Source: Chloroflexi bacterium OHK40
GTDB taxonomy: Bacteria; Chloroflexota; Chloroflexia; Chloroflexales; Chloroflexaceae
DNA length: 38,206 nt
NCBI GenBank assembly: GCA_004367505.1
Contig: SFCB01000147.1
Location: 1 to 38,206, forward strand
Direction: 5' to 3'
This document shows, piece by piece, positions 11,066 through 25,754 of this stretch. Both the position numbers and the translations under genes were made by a program. The notes beneath the pieces are model-generated. The model did no database searches, had not been told where the DNA came from, and worked only from the letters and a program-made list of their open reading frames with translations. Every line of letters begins with the position of its first letter. Positions within the stretch are counted from its first letter, which is position 1.

Positions 11066-11086
11066 GTAGAGTGGGAGCGTGGCCCT

Positions 11087-11290
11087 ATGGCCGTTGAGTT
11101 TGTGCGTTGCCCGGCCTGCCGGCAGAAGCTGGCGGTGCATGACTATGTGCTTGAGGGATCGCTGGTGGTGTGTGCGAATCCGAAGTGTGGTACCAGCCTG
11201 CGTGTGGCGCGGCGTAAGCCTCTGCGAGTGGAGTTGGTGCCCGAGGTGGAGACATACCGTGCGGATTATCGGCCAGAGTCGTATGGCTGA
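11087..11290 (+). CDS. Small zinc-ribbon protein
   Basis: Protein of 67 residues, probably cytoplasmic. The zinc ribbon has CPAC (residues 8-11) and a second half CANPKC, so four cysteines are available. The C-terminal half is basic and then acidic and aromatic (RKPLRVELVPEVETYRADYR). The ATG at 11087 follows GGGAG. It begins 21 nt after ftsY, and its last 8 nt overlap the next gene. Function is not recognised; nucleic-acid binding is a possibility only by analogy. Confidence 0.75.
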   Translation: MAVEFVRCPACRQKLAVHDYVLEGSLVVCANPKCGTSLRVARRKPLRVELVPEVETYRADYRPESYG

Positions 11291-11717
11291 GCGGCGGGCC
11301 GGCGATGGCTTCGCTCGCCGTGGGCCCGCCGGGGGCCTGCTCCTCGCGCTGCTCGGGCTGATCTGCTCGGGCTGTATGTTGATGAGCGGCCAGGAAACGA
11401 CGATCGACGTGGCCGATGGGACGGGCAATGTGCTCACGCGCTTCGTGAGCGCCGAGGGTGGCGAGGAGGCGTTGATCGATGTCGGTCTCTCTGCCGCCGA
11501 GGTGCAGGTGATCGCCATTGTCGGCGTCGACTCCGGCGACCTGGAGCTTACGCTGCTGCAGCCCGACGGCGCTGCCGCCTTCACCGTGGCCTCGCGCCCC
11601 GACACCGAGGTGACCCGCTCGGGTGGGGTGCGCACCGATGAGGAGGGCCGGCTGCGCTACCGTGTCAGCGCTCGTGGTGCGCGCGACGGGAGCTACCAGA
11701 TCTTTGTGCAGCCGTAG
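11283..11717 (+). CDS. Putative small lipoprotein
   Basis: Protein of 144 residues. A basic N-terminus (MAERRAGDGFARR) leads to a hydrophobic stretch (GGLLLALLGLI) and a Cys at 31 within ICSGC, a slightly atypical lipobox with Cys at -3. The mature part is beta-rich with an acidic start (DVADGTGNVLTRF), resembling extracellular pre-peptidase-type sandwich domains (LELTLLQPDG). It ends SYQIFVQP. Its ATG lies within the end of the zinc-ribbon gene, so translation is probably coupled. It is convergent with the M50 gene. Confidence 0.7.
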   Translation: MAERRAGDGFARRGPAGGLLLALLGLICSGCMLMSGQETTIDVADGTGNVLTRFVSAEGGEEALIDVGLSAAEVQVIAIVGVDSGDLELTLLQPDGAAAFTVASRPDTEVTRSGGVRTDEEGRLRYRVSARGARDGSYQIFVQP

Positions 11718-11746
11718 GCGGGCCGCCGCACGCGGCGACCCTACGG
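11712..11746. terminator. Two-part hairpin between convergent genes
   Basis: CCGTAGG (11712-11718) pairs with CCTACGG (11740-11746). Inside, GCCGC (11722-11726) pairs with GCGGC (11732-11736), separated by a 3x3 internal loop. Both flanking genes' TAG stop codons lie in the outer stem. It is well placed as a bidirectional terminator but has no T-tract. Confidence 0.45.
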
Positions 11747-14700
11747 TGATGGCTGCAACTCGCGGATGCGCGCCGTACCGATGCGCTCAAGGCCCCGCGC
11801 GGCGCCCCCACTGCGCAGGAGATCGGCTACCGTCTGATGGGGGAGAACCAGCAGCTCCACGGGGGTAGTTGCCACCACACTGGCCATCGGCGGTGTGCCT
11901 CTGAGGAGCTCCAGTTCGCCGAAGAGCTCGGCCGGGCCAAGCCGCGCCACCACCGCCGTGGCGCCTGTTTCGTCGCGCCGGAGCACGGCGGCACTGCCCG
12001 CCACGATTACGAAGATGCGCCCGCTCGGGTGGCCCTGGCGGATGAGAACGCTGCGGGCAGGGAGATGGACGTGTTCGGCGGTGCGGGCAAGTGCCCGTAG
12101 CGCCTCACGGGGCAGGTCGTGGAAGAAGGGCGCCCGTTCGAGTGAACGCACCGTGTGGGCGAGGGCGAGGCCATCGGCGGCGTGAGGGGCCGCCTCCCGC
12201 GCTAGCTGGCGCAGCTCGTCCAGGCTGAGAAAGAGCAGGTCGCTATCGACGCTGGCGCGGTAGTCCAGGGACGAGGGTTGCTCGGTGTCCAGCCCGGTGG
12301 CGCCGAAGCATTCGGCGCGGTGCAGCTCCTCCACCACGCGCGTGCCGTCGCGGGCAGTCACCTCACCTGCCTCGACGATCCAGAGGCCGGGCGGACATAC
12401 GCCCGCGCCGAGCACCAGGGTTCCCGCCGCGGCCCGACGCGGAACGAGCGCGGTCGCGAGGGCGGCGAGTTCGGCATCGTCGCAGCCGGCGAAGCGCTCG
12501 ACCTCGCGCAACAGCCGTATGCGGGCGGCCCGGGCATCGCCGAAAGCCCGGGAGAGCTCGCGGGCCCAGGGCGTGTTGGGGAAGCAGCGCCGGTCGGCGG
12601 CCTCGCGCTCGGGCCAGGGGAGCGCGTCGTAGGCAACCTGGATGGCGCGGCGGGCGAAGGTGGCCCCGGCGAGCCCCTCGATGGTCGCCACGGCGTAGCG
12701 CAGCACTTCGGCGTAACGCGCGCCCTGGGTATCGATCGGCGCTCCGGCCAGTTCGGCGCCAATGCGCGCTTCGTCCCGGTCGAGCGTAATCTGCCAGTTG
12801 GCCGTGGCTGCGAGCACATCCATCCGGTCGTCGAGGGCCCGGGCGCGCCGGGTGCCGTGATGCTGACGTAACATCCAGTACAGCCCGGCGTAGGTGTGGC
12901 GGAAGGCCCGCTGCAGGCGCGCGGCTTCGCCTCTGGCAGGCTCCATGGGCCAGCTGAGGCTCCGCGACACGCCCTGCCGCAAGACCACCAGGTGTGAGCA
13001 CCAGGCGGCTGCCCACAGCCCTGCCGCGAGCACTACGGCGGCGTGGGCTACGGCGCTGCCGCGCCAGGCGGGCAGCAGTTCGAGCACGTAGGCCGGTGTC
13101 TGCGCGGCGATACCCACCCAGAGCAGCAGCCAGCTTGCCAGCAACCGCGACTCGTGCAGACCGGCCACCTGTGGCAACAGCAGCGCCAGTGCCATCGCGC
13201 TGGTGTAGACGGGGGCGGCATTGACGACGCTCAGCAGGAAGGGTTCGCCGGGGCGCGCCGCCTGGAAGAGGCCGATCGTCAGGCCGCCGGCCAGGAAGGC
13301 CAGGGCCATCAGCAAGGCGCTGCCGGCCAGTTCACCCGGCGGCGACTGGCGCAGGTCGATATCGAGCAGAGCGACCAGTCCGGCGAAGAGCAGGAGCGCG
13401 AAGCCCAGGTTCTCCATCGCCGACCAGAGCGGCGCCTGGCCCGGGAGCAGGCGGAAGCCTAGCTGGGCGATCACCTCGATGCCGGTCACGACCAGGAAAC
13501 AGTCGAGCGAGCGCGCCACGGCCGCCCCCCGGTAGTCGGCGTGGAGCGCCAGTTGGGCCGCCAGCGCCGCCAGCCAGAGCAGCGGGGCCAGGAGCGAGCT
13601 GTCGAGAGCGCTGCCGTAGCGTAGCGGAAGCGTGGCGAAGGCGACAGCCAGGAGGGCCAGGGCGCCAGCCACGATGGTGGGGCTGCGGCTGAGCCCCTGC
13701 CGGCCTACCCACGCGGCGGCGGCCTGTAGCAGGCCCCAGGCCGCCACGAGCAGGCCCAGGCCAACCGGCACGACCACACCGAGTACGATCAGGACCGCCA
13801 GAGCTTGTCCGCCTGGCCCGGCAGCCCAGAGCGCGGCGACCGTGCCCGCAAGCTGGACGCGCCAGAAGACGAGCGCCAGGGCTATGGCGAGGGCGGTATA
13901 GAGGGCTGCCAGGGCGCCGTAGAGCGTAAAGATACGCTCCTCACGGCTCAGCCTGGCGAGGAGTGCGCCGCGTTCGGGGCCCGGAGCCGCTCGCAGCTTC
14001 TGCCAGAGTGGCCCACGGATGAAGGCGAGCGCCCGCTGGCGCAGGTTTGGAAGGCCCAGCCAGTCGCTGAGCATGTAGTAGCCGTCGAGCTCCAGCAGAG
14101 GGTTCAGGTTGCAGAGCCCCGCGAGGTACGAGGCAACCGCAAGGGTGTAGGCAGCCGAGCCGGCTGACCCCGGCAGGAGAAAGGTGGCAGCGATGGCTGC
14201 TAGCGAGCCCAGGAGCGCATCGCAGATCGGCCCGGCCAGCGAGGTGATCACCCGCGCTCGCCGGCCCGCCAGCCAGATGTCGCTCGTATCGACAAAGGCG
14301 GCGGGCATACCGAAGTACATCATCACCCCGGCCCGCACTACGCGCCGCCCGAAGTGCTTGACCGCAAGGGCGTGGGCCAGTTCGTGCAACACGAACGATA
14401 CGAGCAACGCGGCCCAGAGCCCGAGCAAGCTCAAGCCCACCGTGCCCACGCCGATCGTCGTGGCTCCGTCGCCGGCCCACTGCGGCGACAGACGGGCAAA
14501 GCACGCCAGCCCCGCCGCGATCGTCAGGCCGATCAGGACTGCCGCCGGCCACGTGAAGAGCGCCCAACCGCCCCAGCGGTAGAGCGCGCCGGCCAGTTCA
14601 TCGACACCCCCGACCGGCAGTGTGTACGATCGCAGGGCGCCTACGAGGCGGCGCCCCCACCCCTGTACCGTGCGGGCCTCCAATCGCCCCTGCATGCCTC

Positions 14701-15178
14701 GGTAGAGCCCCACCGGCGAGTCGACCAGGAACCCGTCCTGCCGCAGGCTACGCACCAGCCCGTCAACGGGGAGCAGCTGGCGGAAGCGCAGAAAGCCCAT
14801 GGTCGCCAGGTCGGCTACGCTACGGCTGCCATCCATCGCCGCCCAGAGCTCGCGCTCGGCGGGGGTGAGCCGCAGGTAACGCCCGGCAGGGCTACGCAGC
14901 ACCGTGTAGGTCGTGCCGTCCTCCGTCACCGTCTCTTCGACCACGCCCTGGATGGCCAGCGGATGATAGGCCGCCGGGTCAGTGCGCCGGGCGAGGGTAC
15001 TCCAGATCCCATCGACCGGGCTCGCCGGGTGCATGGTGAGGTGGGCGGCTAGCGCGGCGTAGACCCCGGGCTGGCCATGATCCTCGGCGGCCCGCGCGGC
15101 GAGATCAGCCCAGAGGCGGTTGGCGGCAGGGGTCGTGCCCGCTATGCTGCGTAGTGGCGCGCCAAGATCAATAGCCAC
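11741..15178 (-). CDS. PqqD-like / M50 metalloprotease / double cNMP-fold membrane protein
   Basis: Polytopic membrane protein of 1145 residues. Residues about 78-155 resemble a PqqD-type winged domain (LRLTPAERELWAAMDGSRSV). An M50 site-2-type zinc protease core follows: HELAH at 265-269 and NPLLELDGYY with Asp365. Many hydrophobic segments then run to about 720. A helical region (730-890) leads to two cyclic-nucleotide-binding-type folds, 893-1000 and 1013-1123. Neither phosphate cassette is complete: the first has FGAT but keeps Arg (YRAS); the second keeps FGE but has Met for Arg (PPMAS). The start is GTG with GGAG 7 nt upstream. Related M50 proteins act on membrane or peptide substrates. 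The target here is unknown; the divergent 67-residue gene is a candidate partner. Confidence 0.85.
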   Translation of the reverse strand: MAIDLGAPLRSIAGTTPAANRLWADLAARAAEDHGQPGVYAALAAHLTMHPASPVDGIWSTLARRTDPAAYHPLAIQGVVEETVTEDGTTYTVLRSPAGRYLRLTPAERELWAAMDGSRSVADLATMGFLRFRQLLPVDGLVRSLRQDGFLVDSPVGLYRGMQGRLEARTVQGWGRRLVGALRSYTLPVGGVDELAGALYRWGGWALFTWPAAVLIGLTIAAGLACFARLSPQWAGDGATTIGVGTVGLSLLGLWAALLVSFVLHELAHALAVKHFGRRVVRAGVMMYFGMPAAFVDTSDIWLAGRRARVITSLAGPICDALLGSLAAIAATFLLPGSAGSAAYTLAVASYLAGLCNLNPLLELDGYYMLSDWLGLPNLRQRALAFIRGPLWQKLRAAPGPERGALLARLSREERIFTLYGALAALYTALAIALALVFWRVQLAGTVAALWAAGPGGQALAVLIVLGVVVPVGLGLLVAAWGLLQAAAAWVGRQGLSRSPTIVAGALALLAVAFATLPLRYGSALDSSLLAPLLWLAALAAQLALHADYRGAAVARSLDCFLVVTGIEVIAQLGFRLLPGQAPLWSAMENLGFALLLFAGLVALLDIDLRQSPPGELAGSALLMALAFLAGGLTIGLFQAARPGEPFLLSVVNAAPVYTSAMALALLLPQVAGLHESRLLASWLLLWVGIAAQTPAYVLELLPAWRGSAVAHAAVVLAAGLWAAAWCSHLVVLRQGVSRSLSWPMEPARGEAARLQRAFRHTYAGLYWMLRQHHGTRRARALDDRMDVLAATANWQITLDRDEARIGAELAGAPIDTQGARYAEVLRYAVATIEGLAGATFARRAIQVAYDALPWPEREAADRRCFPNTPWARELSRAFGDARAARIRLLREVERFAGCDDAELAALATALVPRRAAAGTLVLGAGVCPPGLWIVEAGEVTARDGTRVVEELHRAECFGATGLDTEQPSSLDYRASVDSDLLFLSLDELRQLAREAAPHAADGLALAHTVRSLERAPFFHDLPREALRALARTAEHVHLPARSVLIRQGHPSGRIFVIVAGSAAVLRRDETGATAVVARLGPAELFGELELLRGTPPMASVVATTPVELLVLPHQTVADLLRSGGAARGLERIGTARIRELQPSP

Positions 15179-15241
15179 CAGTTCACTCCACGACGCAATC
15201 GCTCATCTGCTTCTCATCAACGTACGAGAACTATTGAACCG

Positions 15242-15295
15242 GGTGCTTCGTCATAGAGAGTGTAAGCACCATACGATGTGAGTCTAGCGTATACG
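15242..15295. promoter_or_regulatory. Divergent control region with inverted repeat
   Basis: GGTGCTT (15242-15248) and AAGCACC (15264-15270) form a perfect 7-bp inverted repeat with a 15-nt spacer, centred between the GTG of the M50 gene and the ATG at 15306. A TATACG (15290-15295) could be the -10 of the rightward gene, leaving a very short leader. The repeat could be an operator for both genes. Confidence 0.35.
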
Positions 15296-15305
15296 GGGAA
15301 CAACG

Positions 15306-15509
15306 ATGAACGAGCGCGCTCTGACGTTGAAGGCCGACCTGCGTGTGTGGCAGGACGAGCGCTTCGGCCAGCTCTGGCGGGTGGCCTACCGTGATGGCGA
15401 TGAGGTGACGATCGTCAGTTTCCCGGACTCCGAGGCGCTCGGCGATTTTATCGCCGAGCAGTTCGGTGTGGGCCTCGACGATAGTGAGCCGCTCGTCGCG
15501 GCGGCCTAG
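15306..15509 (+). CDS. 67-residue protein divergent from the M50 protease
   Basis: Small soluble protein, not recognised. It begins MNERALTLKADLRVWQDE, has a beta-like middle (QLWRVAYRDGDEVTIVSF), then a helix (SEALGDFIAEQFG) and a short tail ending in AAA. It has no cysteine, no membrane segment and no signal peptide. The composition is acidic. Codon use matches the neighbours and both hairpin and promoter context fit a real gene. It stands alone on its strand, sharing the 127-nt control region with the M50 protein, which makes it a candidate substrate, partner or regulator. That link is inference from position. Confidence 0.65.
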   Translation: MNERALTLKADLRVWQDERFGQLWRVAYRDGDEVTIVSFPDSEALGDFIAEQFGVGLDDSEPLVAAA

Positions 15510-15536
15510 TAGAGCAGCCCCAGAGGGGCGGCTCTA
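15510..15536. terminator. Strong bidirectional hairpin
   Basis: TAGAGCAGCCCC (15510-15521) pairs with GGGGCGGCTCTA (15525-15536) with a single mismatch and a 3-nt loop. It sits between two convergent genes: it starts right after the TAG of the 67-residue gene and ends in the TAG of the subtilase. Confidence 0.65.
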
Positions 15537-18500
15537 CTCCCTGGCCACCATCGGTGTGTACTCGCGCCGCGCCAGGTAGACGATGTCGAAGGGCAAGAGG
15601 CCCAGATCGCCGGCCGCCGCAAGGTCTGCTGAGCTGCTCAGCTCCAGGACGCCGAGGTAGCGCCCGGCGGCATCCGGGTTGGTTGCGAGTGCCCAGTGCA
15701 GTTCGACGGTGAAGGGCTCCTCAGCCCGCGCCCGCGCTGGTCCGATTACTGTGATGGTGCCGCTGGACGTGCCTGGCACCAGGTTCACCAGCAGGCCAAT
15801 TTCCTCCTCCGCTCTTCCCGAGCCTTCGAAGATCTGTACTACCACGATGAGGCGGCGTGCCGCGCCCGGGGTTCCCGGGAGGTCACAGCGCTCATCCGAC
15901 CAGCGCCCAGCGCTGGCGCAGATCAGCTCCTCGGCCTGGGGCGCGCCGTCGGCCGGGCCGCCCGCTCCATCCTCAAAGACGAACAGGTCTGTGTCGGGTG
16001 CCGTAGACTCAACGATCGCCAGGTAGGCCCGGGGCGTGTCTGCCGGTAGATCGAGCGCCAGGCTGGCCGTGCCCGAGCCGTGATCGAGCGGGTCGAGGGG
16101 CGTGGGATCCTGCGCGGCGCGCAGGGCGCGCATCCTCCCCAGGCTCGGCCCGAGGACTCGCAGCGTGAGCGTATCGGTGGATCGGGTGCGGATGGCACCA
16201 GTGGTATAGGCGCCCGTTGCGCTGGCGGTGGTGATGGTCGGGGGCGCAGGCAGGACCGCGCTCGGGGCATTGAGGGCTACGGGCAGGCGCGCACGTGGCG
16301 CCAGGCCACGGACCTCGTCGAAGATCACGGCGCCGGAGAGATAGCTGCCCTCCGGCGTGGGCGCACCGGGAGCCACCTGCGCCGTGATCGTGATCGTCTG
16401 CGTTGCTCCGACAGCGAGGGTGAATCGGGATGGCTCGATGCGCAGGCTCAGGCGAGTGTCACCCTCGGCGCTGGCCTGCCATGTGGCTGGAGCGCCAAGG
16501 GCGTTGCGCACCATGCGTGTGAAGACACACTGCTCCAGGCAGAGGGCGCTGCTGAGGCTGGCCAGGTTCAGCGTCGACGGATCGCCCCTCAGGGCCGGGT
16601 CGGCGGCGGCGAAGGCGGCCGGCGACTCGTCCAGTAGCAGGCCGGCGCGAGCGGCCAGTTCGACCCGTATCCGTCCCGAGCCTGCATCGTGGGGAGTTGC
16701 TGCGGCTTCGTCGCGATCGCGGCGGAGCGTGGGGAGTGCGGTGGTCATCAGGGCCGAGCGGATCTCCATCGGCGTCCAGTCGGGGTGTAGCTGTCTGAGC
16801 AGGGCGGCGGCGCCGGCGGCGTGAGGCGCGGCCATCGAGGTGCCGCTGAGGAAGGTATAGTCAGGGTTGGATGGGTCGTAGTCGGCACTCGCGGCGAGAA
16901 TGTTCAGCCCGGGCGCCACCAGGTCGGGCTTGAGTGTACCGGGTACGAGCTCATTTGGCCCCCGTGCGCTGAACCAGGCCACGGTGTCGCGGGGGGCGCT
17001 GGTGTCGCGGGTGGTAGGGCCGATCGCCGCCCGGTGCCCGCTCCCGCTGGCGAGCCAGGCAAGCAGCGGTGCCGCCGTGGCCGCGTCGAGCGCGACCGTC
17101 GGGAGCTCCAGCAGTTCGACGAAAGGTTGCGGGCCAGCCTCGGGTGGCCAGACGATCACCAGACCGCCGGCACCGGCCCGGGCAGCATACCGGGCGACGG
17201 AGGAACTGGTGAGGAACGGCCGGCAGACGAGGATCGCGCCGTTCAGGTCCACGTGGGGCGCGAAGGGTCCGCAGGACGGATTGGACAACGAGAGGGAGCC
17301 GGGTAGCTGCGCGGCATCTACCAGCGGAGCAGGCCCCAGACTCGCCGATCCAAAACCCACGCCCCGCAGTTCGCCGGGTGGCGGAGTCGCGCCGCCGCTG
17401 AGGTCAGTGAGGGCTCGGGTGTAGGTGCGGCCGTGGCTGGAGGCGCCCACAGCGATGACCCAGGGAGCATTGGCTGGCGCGCCGATGCTGGCGGGCGAGG
17501 GACCGCCGTTCCCGGCGGCCACGGAGGCGAGCACCCCGGCTTCGAGTGCGCCGAGGAAGGCGAGCGCATCGGCGTCGGCCCATGGATCGCCGGCGAAGCC
17601 GCTGATCGAGTAGTTCAGCACCGCCACACCGTCGGCGGCGGCCTGATCGATCGCCGCGACGCTTGCCTCCAGGGGGCAGAGGCTACCCTCGGGTGTGCCG
17701 CAGACATCGTAGACCACCAGGCTGGCGTGGGGCGCAACGCCCGTCACCGCGCCGGTGTTCACCCCGGCGACGCTCGTGGCTGGCACGAGGTTTCCGCCGA
17801 GGGTGCTGGCCGTGTGCGAGCCGTGGCCGTCGTCGTCGAAGGGGCTCGGACGCCCCGCCGGGTCGGGGAGTGCGGCGGTTGCGGGGTAGCTGTGGGCGCC
17901 CACGAGCTTCTCATTGCAGGGAAAGTCGGGCCGGTAGCTGGCGGCGGCGGGGTCGCAGACCCCAAGGTACGCGCCGGGACCTCGCGGGTTGGCGTGGGCG
18001 TAACCATCGGGCGCGGGGTCGGCAAAGGAGGGGGTGAACGGGTTGATGCCCGTGTCGGCCACGCCGGCAAGCACGCCTTCGCCACGAGCCGGGAGCAAGG
18101 TGCCGGTGATCTCGCCTTCGGGGAGGTTCGAGGTGGTGATGACCAGCGAGGCCTGACCCTGGAGGAGCGCATCCTCGGTGGCGGCAAGCGTGAGGCCCGG
18201 CGCGACGCCGAGTTGCAGCTCGCCGGCGAAGAGATCGCCGTCTGGAGCGGCGAGCGGTGTCAGGTCGAGCGCGAGGCCAGGGGGCAAACCGGGCCTGGCG
18301 ATGAGGAGCCAGGCGGCCACGGGTGGCCCGGAGAGGCCCTGGTAGGCGAGTTGCACACCGACCTGGCGGGTGAGAGCGTTGTAGGTGAGCACTGCGCGGC
18401 CACGGGCAGGGCCGGAGCCACGTAGTTCGGCGGAGAAGAGGGCCGGGCGCAGGTCGGCCTGGGCCGCGCCGATCAGGCCTGGGCCGCTGTCGGTGGCCAG

Positions 18501-18986
18501 TGGGCGCGGCACGTCCCGCTGGACGAGGCGCACCCCGGGGAGGTTTGCGACGATGGCAGCCTCGGCCGGGTTCAGGCTGAGTGCTACGCCGTTGAGTGCG
18601 TAGCGGTAGCTGTGGCGCGGCGCGACAGGCCTCCCGATCGCGGCGCCGATCGTGCGGAGCGCCGCTGCCTGGCGACCATCCAGATAGGTGAGATAGGCAC
18701 GCGCGGCAGGCGATTGCGTGTCGAGCCGCGCAGTGCCAATGGCGCGGGGGCTGGTGGCGGCCAGGCCGGAGAGGCCGCCGCCATAGCGGGCGAGGGGCAG
18801 GTCGTCAAGGACAACGAGATAGGTACCCGGCCCGCTTTCCGCTCGTACATCGGCCTTCGACAGGCCCCGTGGCGTGAGCCGGGGTAGGCTGCTATCGGCG
18901 GCCACCGGCGTGGCCGGGGCGGGTCGGCCCGCCAGGGCAGCGAGGGTGAGCAGTATGCAGAGGGCGGTCAGAGCGCGGGGCAGCAT
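15534..18986 (-). CDS. Secreted subtilisin-family (S8) protease with degenerate CHRD-like domain
   Basis: Extracellular serine protease of 1150 residues. It has a signal peptide (1 to about 25, ending APA) and an I9-type propeptide (about 53-160). A region at 182-297 aligns with the CHRD domain of the paralogue at 21841 but has lost its EVPP, HIH and NIHT motifs. The S8 core follows: Asp311 (ADTGI), His388 (DGHGSHTA), oxyanion Asn493 and Ser717 (SGTSMAAPH). A protease-associated insert lies at about 555-640. C-terminal beta domains include TDLFVFEDG. It ends EYTPMVARE, similar to other secreted proteins here. ATG is preceded by CGGGAA. It begins 12 nt after the beta-CASP gene, so the two are probably co-transcribed. 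Confidence 0.92.
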   Translation of the reverse strand: MLPRALTALCILLTLAALAGRPAPATPVAADSSLPRLTPRGLSKADVRAESGPGTYLVVLDDLPLARYGGGLSGLAATSPRAIGTARLDTQSPAARAYLTYLDGRQAAALRTIGAAIGRPVAPRHSYRYALNGVALSLNPAEAAIVANLPGVRLVQRDVPRPLATDSGPGLIGAAQADLRPALFSAELRGSGPARGRAVLTYNALTRQVGVQLAYQGLSGPPVAAWLLIARPGLPPGLALDLTPLAAPDGDLFAGELQLGVAPGLTLAATEDALLQGQASLVITTSNLPEGEITGTLLPARGEGVLAGVADTGINPFTPSFADPAPDGYAHANPRGPGAYLGVCDPAAASYRPDFPCNEKLVGAHSYPATAALPDPAGRPSPFDDDGHGSHTASTLGGNLVPATSVAGVNTGAVTGVAPHASLVVYDVCGTPEGSLCPLEASVAAIDQAAADGVAVLNYSISGFAGDPWADADALAFLGALEAGVLASVAAGNGGPSPASIGAPANAPWVIAVGASSHGRTYTRALTDLSGGATPPPGELRGVGFGSASLGPAPLVDAAQLPGSLSLSNPSCGPFAPHVDLNGAILVCRPFLTSSSVARYAARAGAGGLVIVWPPEAGPQPFVELLELPTVALDAATAAPLLAWLASGSGHRAAIGPTTRDTSAPRDTVAWFSARGPNELVPGTLKPDLVAPGLNILAASADYDPSNPDYTFLSGTSMAAPHAAGAAALLRQLHPDWTPMEIRSALMTTALPTLRRDRDEAAATPHDAGSGRIRVELAARAGLLLDESPAAFAAADPALRGDPSTLNLASLSSALCLEQCVFTRMVRNALGAPATWQASAEGDTRLSLRIEPSRFTLAVGATQTITITAQVAPGAPTPEGSYLSGAVIFDEVRGLAPRARLPVALNAPSAVLPAPPTITTASATGAYTTGAIRTRSTDTLTLRVLGPSLGRMRALRAAQDPTPLDPLDHGSGTASLALDLPADTPRAYLAIVESTAPDTDLFVFEDGAGGPADGAPQAEELICASAGRWSDERCDLPGTPGAARRLIVVVQIFEGSGRAEEEIGLLVNLVPGTSSGTITVIGPARARAEEPFTVELHWALATNPDAAGRYLGVLELSSSADLAAAGDLGLLPFDIVYLARREYTPMVARE

Positions 18987-18998
18987 CGCGAATTCCCG

Positions 18999-21569
18999 TT
19001 AACCTGCCGTTTCGACGCGCAGCGTGAGCCGCCAGCCAGTGCGCTGGTAAAATACCCGGGCGGCCTCGGCCACCGCCTCAGGCGTAGCGGTGCCGCCAAC
19101 GCGCAGTACGGCCTCGTGGGTCGCGCTCTGCAGGGCCGGATTGCCCAGCGCCACAAGGCCCGGGGGCACGGCCTCGCGCGCGGCCTGGATCAGCGCCTCC
19201 TGGTGGGGCTGAGGCCAGAGCCGCACCGACCAGCCGATAAACGCCGCCAGTTCGATCAGCTGAGCCTGATAACGGGCACGAGCGACCGTTGGGAAAAAGA
19301 ACCGGAGCGTCACCACGCCGGAGCTCTGGTCGGCGCTGGCCTTGTAGCAGCCGCTCTCGGGCCCAAACCAGGCGCGGGCTGTGCTGAGCGCGAAGTTGAG
19401 TTCGCTGCGGGTGGCCTCTGGTGGCGCACGAAACAGCTCATCGTCGGAGGCTTCGGTTGTGGCGGCCGGCGCTGTCTCGGCGCCAGGCAGCCGGATGTGC
19501 AGGCGCAGCCCGGTTCGAGCGGCGAAGGCGCTCTCTGCGGCGGTCACCACGGCCTGTTCGGCGGTGCCCAGGCAGCGGAGCTCCACGCGGCCCGCTTCGT
19601 GGTAGATCGCCGGCGGTCGGGCCGCGCTCAGACCAGGCGGCAGTACGGCGAGGGCTGCAGCGGCGAGTTGGCCCTGGTGGGGCTGGGGCCACACGCTCAC
19701 CTCTACGCCAGCCTCGGCGGCCACGCGCCCGATGGCTGCGGCATCGCGTGGAGCGGCCATCCGTGGGAAGAAATAGCGCAGTGTCACCGCGCCGGTGTCG
19801 GGATCGACGCCGCGCTGATACAGGTCTGGCGCGTGGCCGAGGTGCCGATCCACAATCGCCAGAATCCTGGCGGTGTCGGGGCGGGGGCTGGACCGCAGGG
19901 GCTGGCCGGCGGTGGCAGCCCGGCGGGCCTCGACGGGCGTGAGGAGACGCCAGAGGCCCGGCGCGTGGGGCAGGGGCGCGAACCATGGGCTTCCGGCCTC
20001 CAGCGCCTCGGCGATGTGCTGCTCCTCCTCGGCGCCAGCGGCAGGGCCGAACCAGGCGCGGGCCAGCTCGCGCACGCTGCATGCCTGGGCGCCGGTACCA
20101 TCACGTAGCGCCAGCCAGAGCCGTTCCAGGCCCGCTACGGTGAGGGGATCGCCGCCGCCAACTGGCGCGGCGGGGGCTGGAATGACCGGCACGGCGATCC
20201 TGTGGCCACCCCGCTCCGCAGGAGCGAGGGTGAGCGCCTGGCCGTCACGGGGGATACACACCTCGGCCAGGTCGCGCAGGCGGGCGGCGAGAGCAGCGCG
20301 GGCCTCCGGATCGCCGTGCACCAGGGCAACCACGCGGGGCTGAAGGGCGCGAACCATCGCGGCCAGTTCATCGCCATCAGCGTGGGCGCTCAGGTTGTAG
20401 CGGCCCACCTGGCAAGCCACCTGCAACACCCGCTCGCCAAAAGCCAGCCGGCGGGCCTCGGGCGGGGCCTCAGCTAGATCCAGCAGGCGTCTGCCGGGCG
20501 CCTCCTCATCGACATAGCCGCTGAAGAAGATCGCGGCCTCGGGTCGCTCGACGAGGCGCTCAGCGTACCAGACCGAGGGGCCGCCCGTGAGCATGCCGGA
20601 AGAGGCGATGATCGCGCAGGGTGGGCCAGCGAGGATTCGCTCGCGCTGCTGGAGGCTCTCGACGGGCTGGACGCTCCCGCCAAAGAAGGGGCGGCCGCCG
20701 TTGAGGAGGTGGCGGCGCAGGGCGGGGGTGAGCGCCTCGGGGAAGGCGGCGTAGGCGGCGCACACGGCGCGTACCAGGCCATCCACCGCCACCGGAAACG
20801 GCGGAATGATCCCGTCGCGCTGGCCGCTGCGCAGGATGAGGATGATCTCCTGGGCGCGCCCAAGGGCGAAGGCGGGGATGAGGCAATGGCCACCCCGCTC
20901 GATCACCGTGGCCACTGCTTCGGCGAGCCGGCGCTCCTCCACGGCCCGGTTCGGATGCAGGCGGGCGCCGTAGGTACTCTCGAGCACCAGCAGGCCCGGG
21001 CGCCTGGGCGCAAGCGGCGCGGCGCCGAGGATGCTGCGTTGCGGTGTGGCGCTCACATCGCCGGAGATCGCCAGGCGCGCGGTGCCGGCCTCGAAGCCCA
21101 GGCTCACCGCGCCGGCAATATGGCCGGCCCGATGGGCGTGGACGGTCACGCCGGGAAGCTCGGGGAGCGCCTGGGCGCCCAGTTGGAGCGGGCGCAGGCG
21201 GCGCAGGGTGGCGGCCACCAGGGCCTCATCGTAGAGCGGCAGCTCCAACTCCTCCGCAGCGCGACGGGCCATCACCCGCACGGCGTCGCCGAGCATCACC
21301 TCCATGAGGCGGATGGTGGGCGGGCTGGCGTAGATCGGTGTGGCCGGGAAACGGTCGGCCAGAAGTGGAAGCGCGCCGATATGGTCGGCGTGGGCGTGGC
21401 TGATCAGGATGGCGTCCAGTGCCACCCCATCGAGGGCCGCCAGGTCCGGCAGGCGGTCACGGCCATCCATGCGCACGCCGGCGTCCACCAGCAGGTGATG
21501 GGGGCCGATCGTCACCAGATTGCAGGAGGCACCAACGCCGCTTGCGCCGCCGAGGAACTGGATCTCCAT
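18999..21569 (-). CDS. Beta-CASP metallo-beta-lactamase nuclease with duplicated C-terminal domain
   Basis: Probable RNase of the CPSF73-like group, 856 residues. The metallo-beta-lactamase core has HAHADH (58-63), His150 and Asp171 (SGDVSAT). Beta-CASP motifs are Glu197 (LESTYG), His396 (NLSAHADGDEL) and His418 (VHGD). Residues about 475-547 look like a winged helix ending LWRLLTP. Two tandem copies of an unassigned domain then occupy about 564-694 and 722-853. Each has GxVTLRxFFP, then WPQPHQ, PPGL, and ends TGxRLxxR. The ribosome site is weak. It lies upstream of the subtilase at 15534 in the same transcription unit. RNA as substrate is inferred from the family. Confidence 0.87.
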   Translation of the reverse strand: MEIQFLGGASGVGASCNLVTIGPHHLLVDAGVRMDGRDRLPDLAALDGVALDAILISHAHADHIGALPLLADRFPATPIYASPPTIRLMEVMLGDAVRVMARRAAEELELPLYDEALVAATLRRLRPLQLGAQALPELPGVTVHAHRAGHIAGAVSLGFEAGTARLAISGDVSATPQRSILGAAPLAPRRPGLLVLESTYGARLHPNRAVEERRLAEAVATVIERGGHCLIPAFALGRAQEIILILRSGQRDGIIPPFPVAVDGLVRAVCAAYAAFPEALTPALRRHLLNGGRPFFGGSVQPVESLQQRERILAGPPCAIIASSGMLTGGPSVWYAERLVERPEAAIFFSGYVDEEAPGRRLLDLAEAPPEARRLAFGERVLQVACQVGRYNLSAHADGDELAAMVRALQPRVVALVHGDPEARAALAARLRDLAEVCIPRDGQALTLAPAERGGHRIAVPVIPAPAAPVGGGDPLTVAGLERLWLALRDGTGAQACSVRELARAWFGPAAGAEEEQHIAEALEAGSPWFAPLPHAPGLWRLLTPVEARRAATAGQPLRSSPRPDTARILAIVDRHLGHAPDLYQRGVDPDTGAVTLRYFFPRMAAPRDAAAIGRVAAEAGVEVSVWPQPHQGQLAAAALAVLPPGLSAARPPAIYHEAGRVELRCLGTAEQAVVTAAESAFAARTGLRLHIRLPGAETAPAATTEASDDELFRAPPEATRSELNFALSTARAWFGPESGCYKASADQSSGVVTLRFFFPTVARARYQAQLIELAAFIGWSVRLWPQPHQEALIQAAREAVPPGLVALGNPALQSATHEAVLRVGGTATPEAVAEAARVFYQRTGWRLTLRVETAG

Positions 21570-21840: not shown

Positions 21841-24800
21841 CTACCGACGGGTCATGGGCACGAACAGGCTATACGGGTCAAAGACCACATCTATCAGGGC
21901 CAGGCCCAGGTCGCCGTCGGCGGTCGGCGAACTGCTCAGGCGCATCCAGCCGATATAGAGATCCTCCTCCTCGGCCCCCGTCAGGTCGTAGCTGAACGTG
22001 AGGTCAAAGCTGTTGCCGGCCGGGTTGGTCTCGGGCGCGGTCAGGGTGAGGTTGCCGGCGGCGCTGTTACCGACGATCCCGCTGAAGACACGGAAGGTGT
22101 CCGTCGCGGCGCCAGACCCCCCGTAGTTCTGGATGAGCACAAGCAGGGGCAGGGCAGAGCTGATTGGCCCGGTCGTCGAGAAGATGTCGCAGGATTCCTC
22201 GGCCAGGGAGGTTGCGCTGACGCAGATCAGCTCGTCTTCCTGGGGGATGCCATCAGGAGTGACAAGGCCATCGAGGAAGACGTAGAGATCCAGGTCCGGC
22301 GCGGTTGAGTCGCGGGTGCGGACGTGGTAGCGCGTCGATCCGGCGGGGATCGTAACCTGCGTGATGCTGATACCCTCGGTGCTATCGAGGAGATCGTTTG
22401 GAGTCGGGTCTTCGGCCAGGCTCCCCTCTACAGGCGTGGTCCGTACCAGGCCAAAGAGCTCTTGGGTGAGGTCACTCACCGCGATCGATCGAATCGTGGT
22501 GCTGTCGCTGCCCTCTTCGGCGCGGGCCGTGATCGTGATGCGGTCCGGTAAGTCCGAGGCGGCGGGCTGGATAGCGACGGGGATCCCGGCCGCGGGCACG
22601 CTGGCGATATTGGAGCTCAGGGTCACCTGGCCGAAGAGGTAGCCGGCGTCCAGGGCGGCCGTCTCAACATCGGCGGTGATGCTGATCGTCTGGGTGGCGC
22701 CGGGGGCGAGGGTAAAGCTGGCCGGCTCAACGGTGAGGGTCATGTTGGGCGCACTGGCGACAGTGGCGGTCCACTCGGCGCTGGCGCCCAGCGTGCTGCG
22801 CACCGTGCGTACGAAGGTGCAGGTGACGATACAGGCGTCTTCGGCGACGCTGGCGAGGTTGAGGGAGTTGGGGCTCCCACCGGTCTCGGGATCGGCGGCG
22901 ATCATCTCCGCGGTGGTCACATCGAAGACGAGGCCGGCCCGGGCGGCGGCGGCTACATCGATCCGGCCACCACCTACATCGAAGGGATCGGTCGGCGTGG
23001 CGCCATCCTCCTTGAGCACGGTAGTGACGCCGGTGCTCATGAGGGCCGACTTGATCTCAGCGGGGGTCCAGTCGGGGTGGATCTGGCGTAGCAGGGCGGC
23101 AGCGCCGGCCACGTGGGGCGACGACATCGAGGTGCCGCTGAGGAACGCGTAGTCAGCCTGGCCAGGGGCGCCGTTGGCGTCGATCCCGACGGCGAGGATA
23201 TCGACACCGGGGCCCGAGACGTCGGGCTTGAGCACATCGGGGACGAGCGAGTTCGGGCCGCGCGAGCTGAAGGATGCCATCACGTCGCCAGAGGCGGGGT
23301 CGACATCCCGGATGGCGCCGCTGATGGCAGCCGTGCAGTCGCTACAGCCGGTGAGCCATGCCTTCAGGTCCACGCCGTCGTCGTAGCTGATATGCACGCC
23401 CGGGATGGGGTACACATCGCCGGAGAGCGAGTTCCCGCTCGCGGCATTGTTCATCAGCACGTAGCCCACACCGCCGGCAGCCTGAACGTTCTCGGCCTTC
23501 TCCACCCGGCCGTAGGTGCCGCGATCGCAGGCGACGATCTTCCCGGCCACCTGAGTGGCCTGGGCGCCGGTGAAGGGGCCACACAGCGCGTTGCCCACAT
23601 CCCCGGCATAGACGATCGAGGTGCTCGTTATGCCCAGAGAGAAGCCTTTGCCGATGAGTGCGGCGCTCGGGCGCGTGGCGGCGCTGCCACCGGCGAAGTT
23701 CTGCAGGTTGTTGATGAACACCCGGTCGTGGGTGCTGGCGGCGACGCTGATCGTCCACGGAGCGCTGGCGACATCGCCATCAAGGGATGCCGCGCCGGGG
23801 CCGCTGTTGCCGGCCGAGCCGACCGGAACGATCCCGGCGGCGAAGGCGCCGAGGGCGGACAGGGCATCGAAGAAGGTCCATGGGCTCAGCGCGGCACTGC
23901 CGATCGAGCGATTGAAGACGTCCACCCCGTCGATGGTGGCCTGATCCACGGCGGCGGCCACGGTGGCGAGGCTGCAGAGCAGCGAGTTCCCGGGTGTCAG
24001 CGGGAGCTCATCGATCCCGCAGACATCGTAGACGATGATGTTGGCGTGCGGGGCCACACCGGTGATCGCGCCGGTGCTCACGCCGTTGATGCTGGTGCTG
24101 TTCACCACGTTCCCGGCGGCGGTGCTGGCCGTGTGTGAGCCGTGGCCATCGTTGTCGGCGGGGCTCGGGTCGCCCTGCGGGTCCGGGTAGCCGTCGGTCA
24201 CGTCGAAGGTGTAGGCGCCGATTACCTTGTCGTTGCAGGGGAAGTCCGGGTTGTAGGTCGCGTTCTCCGGGTCGCAGACGCCCAGGTAGTTCCCGCTGCC
24301 GAGAGGATTGGTGTGGTTATAACCGTCGTCGCCGACATCGGCGAAGGAAGGGTTGTCGATATTGATGCCCGAGTCCAGGATGCCGACGATCACGCCCTCG
24401 CCGCGAGAGGGCGTGATCTGGCCCCGGATCTCGCCGCTCGGGTTCGCATCGGTGTGAATATTGAAGTAGAGCCCACCGTCCAGCAGAGCGGCCTCGATCT
24501 CGGCTGCGGTCTGGTTCACCGGTGCACCGACATCCACAATCGTTTTGGTGCCGATGAAGGCGCCGGCGGTGCCAGGAGTCCCAACGGCGGTGTCGAAGAT
24601 GTCGAGCACCACTCCTCCGGAGACACCAGGGTCGCCGATGTGGATGTGGGCGAGGGTGGGCGCCCCGCTCAGGCCCTCGTAGGAGACGCTGAAGGAGATC
24701 TCATTGCTGTCGGCGTCGTACGTTACGACGGCGCTCCCACTCGCCGTGGTCGTTACCGGCGGAACCTCCTGGTCGCCGCTGAGGCTGGCCTGGAAGACGG

Positions 24801-25374
24801 CCGGCTGCAGGTCGTCCTGGGCGGCGCCGATAAACGTTGGGCCGCGGTCGGTCTGCAGCGACACCAGCTGGTCGCGATCCACCCGCCGGACACCAGGGAG
24901 CGCGGCGATCGCGGCTGCCTGTGCCGGCGTGAAGCGCGCGGCGAACCCATTGATCGTGTAGCGGTACGAGTGGGCGGGCGTCACCGGGCCGCCGACGATC
25001 CGCTCGACCGCCGTGAGTACACTGCGCTGGCGGCCATCGAGGTAGCGGAGGTAGGCCCGGGCTGCGGGGCTGTTCGCATCCACCCTGGCGCTGCCGGTGG
25101 CGGCGGCGCTGGTGCCCGCCAGGCCGGCGATGCCCCCATCGTAGCGGGTGAGTGGGGGCTCGGCCAGTTGCACCACATAGAGGCCGGGGCCGTCGTCATT
25201 CTCGGCGATCGGGGTGAGCTTGCTGCTGCCGGCGCTGATCGCCTGAAGGCCCGGATTGGACTGGGCCGGCTGCGTACCCACAGTGTCCTGGTACACGGCG
25301 TAGGTTGGGACGCTGCTGGCAGCGATCCCGAGGATGAGCAGGAGACTTCCGAGGCCGAAGAGGCGTCTAACCAT
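21841..25374 (-). CDS. Secreted subtilisin-family (S8) protease with intact CHRD domain
   Basis: Extracellular serine protease, 1177 residues, paralogue of the one at 15534. The signal peptide is about 1-26 (ending TYA). The I9-type propeptide is about 65-172. A CHRD domain at 193-318 shows SGDQEVPPVTT, HIHIG (243-247) and LYFNIHTDANPSGEIRGQ. The S8 core has Asp334 (LDSGI), His411 (DGHGSHTA), Asn523 and Ser749 (SGTSMSSPH). A PA-type insert lies at about 590-680. C-terminal beta domains include LDLYVFLDG, and the tail is LFVPMTRR. The frame is open to 25461, but the ATG at 25374 has GGGAG 7-8 nt upstream and begins a proper signal peptide. A consensus-like promoter about 400 nt upstream implies a long leader. 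Confidence 0.93.
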   Translation of the reverse strand: MVRRLFGLGSLLLILGIAASSVPTYAVYQDTVGTQPAQSNPGLQAISAGSSKLTPIAENDDGPGLYVVQLAEPPLTRYDGGIAGLAGTSAAATGSARVDANSPAARAYLRYLDGRQRSVLTAVERIVGGPVTPAHSYRYTINGFAARFTPAQAAAIAALPGVRRVDRDQLVSLQTDRGPTFIGAAQDDLQPAVFQASLSGDQEVPPVTTTASGSAVVTYDADSNEISFSVSYEGLSGAPTLAHIHIGDPGVSGGVVLDIFDTAVGTPGTAGAFIGTKTIVDVGAPVNQTAAEIEAALLDGGLYFNIHTDANPSGEIRGQITPSRGEGVIVGILDSGINIDNPSFADVGDDGYNHTNPLGSGNYLGVCDPENATYNPDFPCNDKVIGAYTFDVTDGYPDPQGDPSPADNDGHGSHTASTAAGNVVNSTSINGVSTGAITGVAPHANIIVYDVCGIDELPLTPGNSLLCSLATVAAAVDQATIDGVDVFNRSIGSAALSPWTFFDALSALGAFAAGIVPVGSAGNSGPGAASLDGDVASAPWTISVAASTHDRVFINNLQNFAGGSAATRPSAALIGKGFSLGITSTSIVYAGDVGNALCGPFTGAQATQVAGKIVACDRGTYGRVEKAENVQAAGGVGYVLMNNAASGNSLSGDVYPIPGVHISYDDGVDLKAWLTGCSDCTAAISGAIRDVDPASGDVMASFSSRGPNSLVPDVLKPDVSGPGVDILAVGIDANGAPGQADYAFLSGTSMSSPHVAGAAALLRQIHPDWTPAEIKSALMSTGVTTVLKEDGATPTDPFDVGGGRIDVAAAARAGLVFDVTTAEMIAADPETGGSPNSLNLASVAEDACIVTCTFVRTVRSTLGASAEWTATVASAPNMTLTVEPASFTLAPGATQTISITADVETAALDAGYLFGQVTLSSNIASVPAAGIPVAIQPAASDLPDRITITARAEEGSDSTTIRSIAVSDLTQELFGLVRTTPVEGSLAEDPTPNDLLDSTEGISITQVTIPAGSTRYHVRTRDSTAPDLDLYVFLDGLVTPDGIPQEDELICVSATSLAEESCDIFSTTGPISSALPLLVLIQNYGGSGAATDTFRVFSGIVGNSAAGNLTLTAPETNPAGNSFDLTFSYDLTGAEEEDLYIGWMRLSSSPTADGDLGLALIDVVFDPYSLFVPMTRR

Positions 25375-25754
25375 AGTCGGGACTCCCTGTATGACGAGAT
25401 CCTTCCGCGGGGCCGGGGCATAGAGTGGATGCGGATGCCCGTTGCGCTCCTTGGAAACCACCGCAGGCGTTCGAAGGCGTCAGGAAGGACGCAGCACGCT
25501 GTGTCGGCATGGCGGTGCCGGTGGACCAGGGGTGCTAAAACGAAGCCAGGCCTCCTTTCCGCTCGGATAGGGCACAGCAACGCGACGGTCACCTGGTGGC
25601 CGCCGGTGCGCTGGAGAAAACGATCATCGAGTTAACAGCACAGCCGCATTGCTGTCTGGAGCTCCTGTGGAATGGGCGTACGTCTCGCGCAGCGGCAGGC
25701 AGGGCCGCTAGCGTGAGGTGCAAACAGGTGGTGTACGGGGGCAGTTACGCGCCA

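Follow-up and report, generated by a model that had tools for sequence, protein, structure and literature searches.

A candidate RRE-guided M50 protease in Chloroflexota and its association with a cyclase-linked peptide

M50 peptidases guided by a RiPP recognition element (RRE) are already known from the pathways of ribosomally synthesized and post-translationally modified peptides (RiPPs). In the MpaP/DapP daptide leader peptidases (NCBIfam NF041824), an RRE is followed by an intramembrane M50 core, and MpaP takes off the daptide leader in an RRE-dependent manner (PMC10036551). The YydH/LiaK metalloproteases of epipeptide maturation (NF058609) likewise contain a RiPP-maturation M50 core. Here, we describe a relative of these enzymes in Chloroflexi bacterium OHK40, encoded in a window of 38,206 nt (the whole stretch of DNA analysed; contig SFCB01000147.1, positions 1 to 38,206). 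The locus comprises a gene for a 1145-aa protein, here termed PROT (11741–15178, minus strand), and a divergent 67-aa gene, SMALL (15306–15509, plus strand), across a 127-bp gap; both genes exist as an initial annotation of the window had described them. That annotation paired the two. We consider it moderately probable that PROT is instead an RRE-guided M50 leader-type protease of an NHLP-clan peptide that is made in trans from a cyclase-linked gene.

Domain architecture of PROT

PROT starts at a GTG codon with GGAG 7 nt ahead of it, and consists of, in order, an RRE, an M50 core, membrane and helical regions, and two cyclic-nucleotide-binding (CNB) folds; relatives at or near full length occur in 34 of 61 Chloroflexales genomes (all window coordinates in this section are on the minus strand). 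A structure model of residues 1–180, built from five sequences (the window's own and those of relatives), contains a confident winged-helix domain of β-β-β-α-α-α topology at residues 71–153 (14720–14968). The best structural match to this domain is a lasso-peptide B1 protein with bound leader (6jx3; Z 9.8, 2.3 Å, 79 residues), followed by TbiB1 with leader (5v1v; Z 9.2), PqqD (5sxy; Z 8.3) and the RRE of PbtF (8t19; Z 7.9); other enzymes with a similar winged helix also reach Z 8–9. The canonical RRE structures were not top-ranked by Foldseek alone, and VIA-align of the same candidates put them on top. Pfam PqqD (PF05402) has no match to the domain at E ≤ 1, its whole-genome search finding another gene, and matches two relatives weakly (12.4 and 22.6 bits, cut-off 23.4). 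The PqqD-like identity that had been assigned to this region holds at the level of the modelled fold.

The M50 core spans residues 256–372 (14063–14413), with HELAH at 265–269 and NLNPLLELDG at 357–366. Its Pfam M50 match is sub-threshold; the HExxH residues (H265, E266 and H269) and N359, P360, D365 and G366 are invariant in all 24 relatives over whose alignment conservation was scored, and the M50 site is intact, as first proposed. Further predicted membrane helices follow the core. Residues 751–890 (12509–12928) form a highly conserved region of the long Chloroflexales form with no Pfam or NCBIfam match, and compact relatives pass directly from M50 to CNB without it.

The C terminus matches the cNMP-binding fold (PF00027) in two stretches with 104 bits. 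The first fold, at about residues 893–1000 (12179–12502), has a degenerate phosphate-binding cassette and is the more degenerate of the two, its Glu being retained in just 7 of 24 relatives. The second (residues 1018–1125; 11804–12127) mostly keeps FGE, while its phosphate-binding Arg is replaced by Pro in 20 relatives and by Ala in the other four. The tail has probably lost canonical nucleotide binding and may serve as an interaction or regulatory module. The two folds of the initial annotation stand; their reading as nucleotide sensors is unsupported for PROT itself because the binding residues are lost. One genome (G042) carries a second, 168-aa fragment of the C-terminal CNB region (L067:15058–15564) some 3 kb away from the complete gene.

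Among curated families, the nearest to PROT are the RiPP leader peptidases, not RseP. NF041824 matches residues 85–455 with 147 bits and shares the arrangement of RRE and M50 core; unlike MpaP/DapP, PROT has extra membrane and helical regions and the two CNB folds, and daptide genes were not recognised near it. NF058609 matches the M50 core with 41 bits, far under its cut-off of 225, and differs in domain make-up. Judged by the curated model, PROT falls outside the daptide family, and it represents a novel form of RRE-M50 protein. The CNB part also matches TIGR03896, a bacteriocin-type transport-associated protein (36 bits, under the cut-off of 161), which lacks the protease and RRE of PROT and combines two CNB domains with, as its name implies, a bacteriocin context. 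In the open-access literature searched, we found no paper on RRE-M50-CNB proteins, on tandem CNB folds attached to RRE-M50, or on a link between a cyclase and an NHLP-clan peptide.

NHLP-clan peptides in the phylum and PROT co-occurrence

Searched with a PROT profile, many Chloroflexota families yield relatives. We read 20 loci outside the Chloroflexales, most of which encode compact RRE-M50-CNB proteins of about 700–750 aa, many with an intact cassette Arg. Twelve of these loci contain, typically at about 1–4 kb from the protease gene, an open reading frame of the NHLP clan (Os1348 family, NF038399; Frankia_peptide, PF14407), and coordinate lists hold further close pairs. The search model for these loci was built partly from five of the frames themselves; NF038399 independently detects most of them. 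The peptide-processing flavour of the initial annotation is supported, both by the nearest curated families and by the precursor-like genes beside the outside relatives. As only one weak case of a nearby cyclase (L175) occurs among the 20 loci, cyclase linkage is here a Chloroflexales feature.

Two further observations concern the outside relatives. A Cys-rich, zinc-finger-like protein of 71–84 aa adjoins the compact proteases at L163, L164, L170, L174, L178 and L179 and is a possible accessory factor. At L180 (G085), a 1229-aa relative carries three FHA and three CNB domains ahead of PqqD-M50 (PqqD 22.6 bits, cut-off 23.4); judged from this sequence, sensor modules vary around a constant RRE-M50 core.

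The Chloroflexales member of the clan is a 72-aa protein (L215:9225–9443) that passes both NF038399 (86 bits, cut-off 40) and PF14407 (81 bits, cut-off 48), as an Os1348-family or Frankia_peptide member would. Its gene lies directly downstream of a cyclase gene in the complete loci read, the losses in genus g4 excepted; the gaps are mostly below 60 nt, and the 512 nt of L220 may reflect misplaced gene ends. This context differs from that of Pseudomonas Os1348, which is located with acetyltransferase, gluzincin-like and SagB-type genes (PMC7726476). The cyclase of 1420–1530 aa has the architecture of soluble adenylyl cyclase (sAC), with tandem class III catalytic domains followed by AAA and TPR; unlike sAC-type enzymes, it is encoded directly upstream of an NHLP-clan peptide. 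In most sequences checked, the metal-binding Asp motifs of C1 and the GDAVN-AAR motif of C2 are kept, making cyclase activity plausible. A defence role was also considered; the PADLOC matches land on the cyclase, CNB and TPR domains. According to a review (PMC11006738), Kobayashi et al. reported that bicarbonate activates cyclases from Chloroflexus.

We arrived at the peptide and the cyclase by following the genes next to the outside relatives, not by a co-occurrence screen of many gene families; SMALL had already failed the co-occurrence test. Across 37 genomes of the host family, a strong peptide match occurs in 26 of 27 genomes with PROT and in 1 of 10 without (26/1/1/9; Fisher p = 8 × 10−7), and across 61 Chloroflexales genomes the cyclase occurs in 32 of 34 with PROT and in 1 of 27 without (32/2/1/26; p = 8 × 10−14), values that mark a strong association, not exact probabilities. 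Cyclase, peptide or both are present in all 27 family genomes with PROT and in 2 of the 10 lacking it. In the partial cases (G008, G022, G024 and G030), contigs stop inside the cyclase gene, and G022 alone has part of a cyclase gene while lacking PROT. Genus g4 offers a closer view. One genome (G026) holds PROT, cyclase and peptide together. PROT and cyclase are both gone from G003 and G018, whose peptide genes, whole in the former and broken in the latter, occupy one syntenic position. The corresponding loci (L220, L221 and L225) read as stepwise decay of the operon, from complete, to cyclase lost, to cyclase lost with the peptide gene broken. The NHLP-clan peptide lies about 50 kb from PROT in G042 and about 37 kb in G026.

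From the observed folds, catalytic residues, outside linkage and phyletic co-occurrence, we infer leader binding, cleavage and any control by the cyclase. PROT would belong to the RiPP leader-peptidase branch as a membrane metalloprotease of the site-2 (M50) type. The RRE at its N terminus would most likely dock an NHLP-clan peptide of the Os1348/Frankia-peptide family, which the M50 core would then cut within or at the membrane. In Chloroflexales, this peptide would be the 72-aa product supplied in trans from the gene right after the sAC-type cyclase gene, and cleavage could mature, export or destroy it.

Several points weigh against this proposal. PROT misses the NF041824 cut-off of 300 bits, as does every other protein of the genome, and the CNB binding residues are gone. 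In 8 of the 20 outside loci, no nearby NHLP-clan frame was found. The 72-aa peptide is conserved throughout, to its C terminus, unlike most RiPP cores; no modification enzyme was recognised beside it, and in Chloroflexales its gene is not adjacent to that of the protease. The Fisher tables count gaps in fragmented assemblies as true absences, and the tests treat related genomes as independent, so that the p-values suggest more independence than there is. In a partial FtsY tree, two further PROT-less genomes stand apart, which suggests, on weak branch support, more than one loss.

PROT might instead be an ordinary enzyme of regulated intramembrane proteolysis, of the RseP/S2P type, with a membrane regulator, for example an anti-sigma factor, as its target and the RRE-like domain as a generic protein-binding winged helix. 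The M50 core and the additional membrane helices would suit such an enzyme, fold alone reveals no function, and no modification genes were recognised beside PROT. We consider it unlikely, given that the nearest curated families are RiPP peptidases, that RRE-M50 relatives are linked to NHLP-clan genes, and that PROT co-occurs with the peptide. It is also conceivable, at distinctly low probability, that PROT and the cyclase–peptide operon merely share a vertical history and do not act together, as the genomes are related, both traits are largely clade-wide, and the two are unlinked in most genomes. Against this stand the loss pattern within g4, the absence of any association for SMALL at the same sampling, and the fact that the two families are linked independently elsewhere in Chloroflexota.

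The divergent gene SMALL and its surroundings

SMALL is a real, conserved gene, which a profile search finds in 25 of 158 genomes of the class, all within one family. From its reading frame, alignment and model, it encodes a β-β-β-α protein with a short C-terminal tail. Pfam, PHROGs and PADLOC give no match and NCBIfam just two insignificant ones; fold searches return nothing significant, the best Z being 6.0 (YkuJ and AP2-like candidates) for a query model with pLDDT 71. Numerous SMALL proteins carry a C-terminal -LAA or -AA (15495–15506 in the window), resembling an ssrA-type degradation tag, and by this analogy SMALL could be a short-lived protein. SMALL was rejected as a RiPP precursor on two grounds: its conserved part is a folded core, not a leader followed by a variable core, and co-occurrence with PROT is lacking. 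Between the convergent ends of SMALL and an S8 protease gene, a 14-bp hairpin (15508–15538; arms 93% complementary, 3-nt loop) is a probable terminator.

PROT and SMALL are adjacent in 17 of the 18 genomes that hold both, being split in G001, and adjacency persists where the flanking genes differ (g4, g13 and g14). Their co-occurrence, on the other hand, is absent: among the 37 family genomes, 18 have both, 9 only PROT, 7 only SMALL and 3 neither (Fisher p = 1), and PROT without SMALL is also found in all Roseiflexus-like (f4) genomes searched. Of the two findings that would have refuted the initial proposal, the lack of co-occurrence holds for SMALL, whereas the lack of a PqqD-like fold does not hold for PROT. 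In G020 (L091:3606–4300), one of the nine PROT-only cases, the SMALL frame enters a transposase-like gene about nine codons in, beside an intact PROT and upstream element. At the SMALL-only loci, no PROT remnants were found. That the genes lie side by side and yet do not co-occur is better explained by a divergent intergenic region in common than by a common function.

The gap itself points the same way. The inverted repeat of the initial annotation has 7-bp arms (GGTGCTT, 15242–15248, and AAGCACC, 15264–15270); simple arithmetic predicts about 0.4 such pairs in a 127-bp gap, relatives do not conserve it, and it is at chance level. Conservation instead marks an element on the plus strand (15202–15252) made of an 11-bp direct repeat, TCATC-N6-TCATC (15203–15218), and GAAC-N17-CGTC (15228–15252). 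The pattern GMAC-N17-CGTM occurs in 17 of 24 regions upstream of SMALL against a shuffled mean of 0.56, a count inflated by related sequences, and its spacing resembles a promoter of an extracytoplasmic function (ECF) sigma factor. The element belongs to SMALL, because it accompanies SMALL at loci lacking PROT (L082, L083, L084 and L086), and loci lacking SMALL (the Chloroflexus-like and Roseiflexus-like ones and G005) do not have it upstream of PROT. The exact element is single-copy in the genome. We also rejected it as the mark of a wide regulon, the remaining matches having two mismatches and never being followed by GAAC/CGT boxes.

SMALL is a separately controlled neighbour of PROT and is not plausible as its sole substrate; that it serves PROT as substrate, partner or regulator, as the divergent adjacency across varied flanks had suggested, is very improbable given its survival without PROT, the PROT-only genomes, the interruption beside an intact PROT, the split in G001 and an element that tracks SMALL. 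The initial annotation read the domains well and chose the wrong partner.

Other genes of the window include a second 67-aa protein (11087–11290), LysW-like and Cys-rich (CPAC/CANPKC), which follows ftsY and is kept in several relatives (cluster c7). Behind it, a GTG frame (11079–11717) probably over-extends a lipoprotein gene with a lipobox-like LICSGC. Two S8 subtilases with one CHRD domain each (15534–18986 and 21841–25461) flank a beta-CASP metallo-hydrolase (18999–21569) with sub-threshold matches to aCPSF1 and type VII Cas14 models.

A possible second-messenger link

The proposed leader-type protease PROT has its tandem CNB tail in common with compact relatives that look competent for cyclic-nucleotide binding. 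A second-messenger link is suggested by the intact CNB cassettes of these relatives together with the cyclase in the Chloroflexales operon; we offer it as a hypothesis, since the two features occur in different lineages. Tentatively, Chloroflexota might possess a cyclic-nucleotide-linked peptide system in which an sAC-type cyclase, possibly bicarbonate-sensing, is co-transcribed with an NHLP-clan peptide that an RRE-guided, tandem-CNB intramembrane protease releases or destroys. The compact relatives would be gated directly by cAMP, and in Chloroflexales the CNB tail would have been re-purposed, the peptide operon taking over control. What we take to be cultured Chloroflexus- and Roseiflexus-type organisms appear to carry the candidate genes, which makes the proposal testable. 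If true, it would connect peptide processing with second-messenger signalling in a phylum from which few peptides have been characterised.

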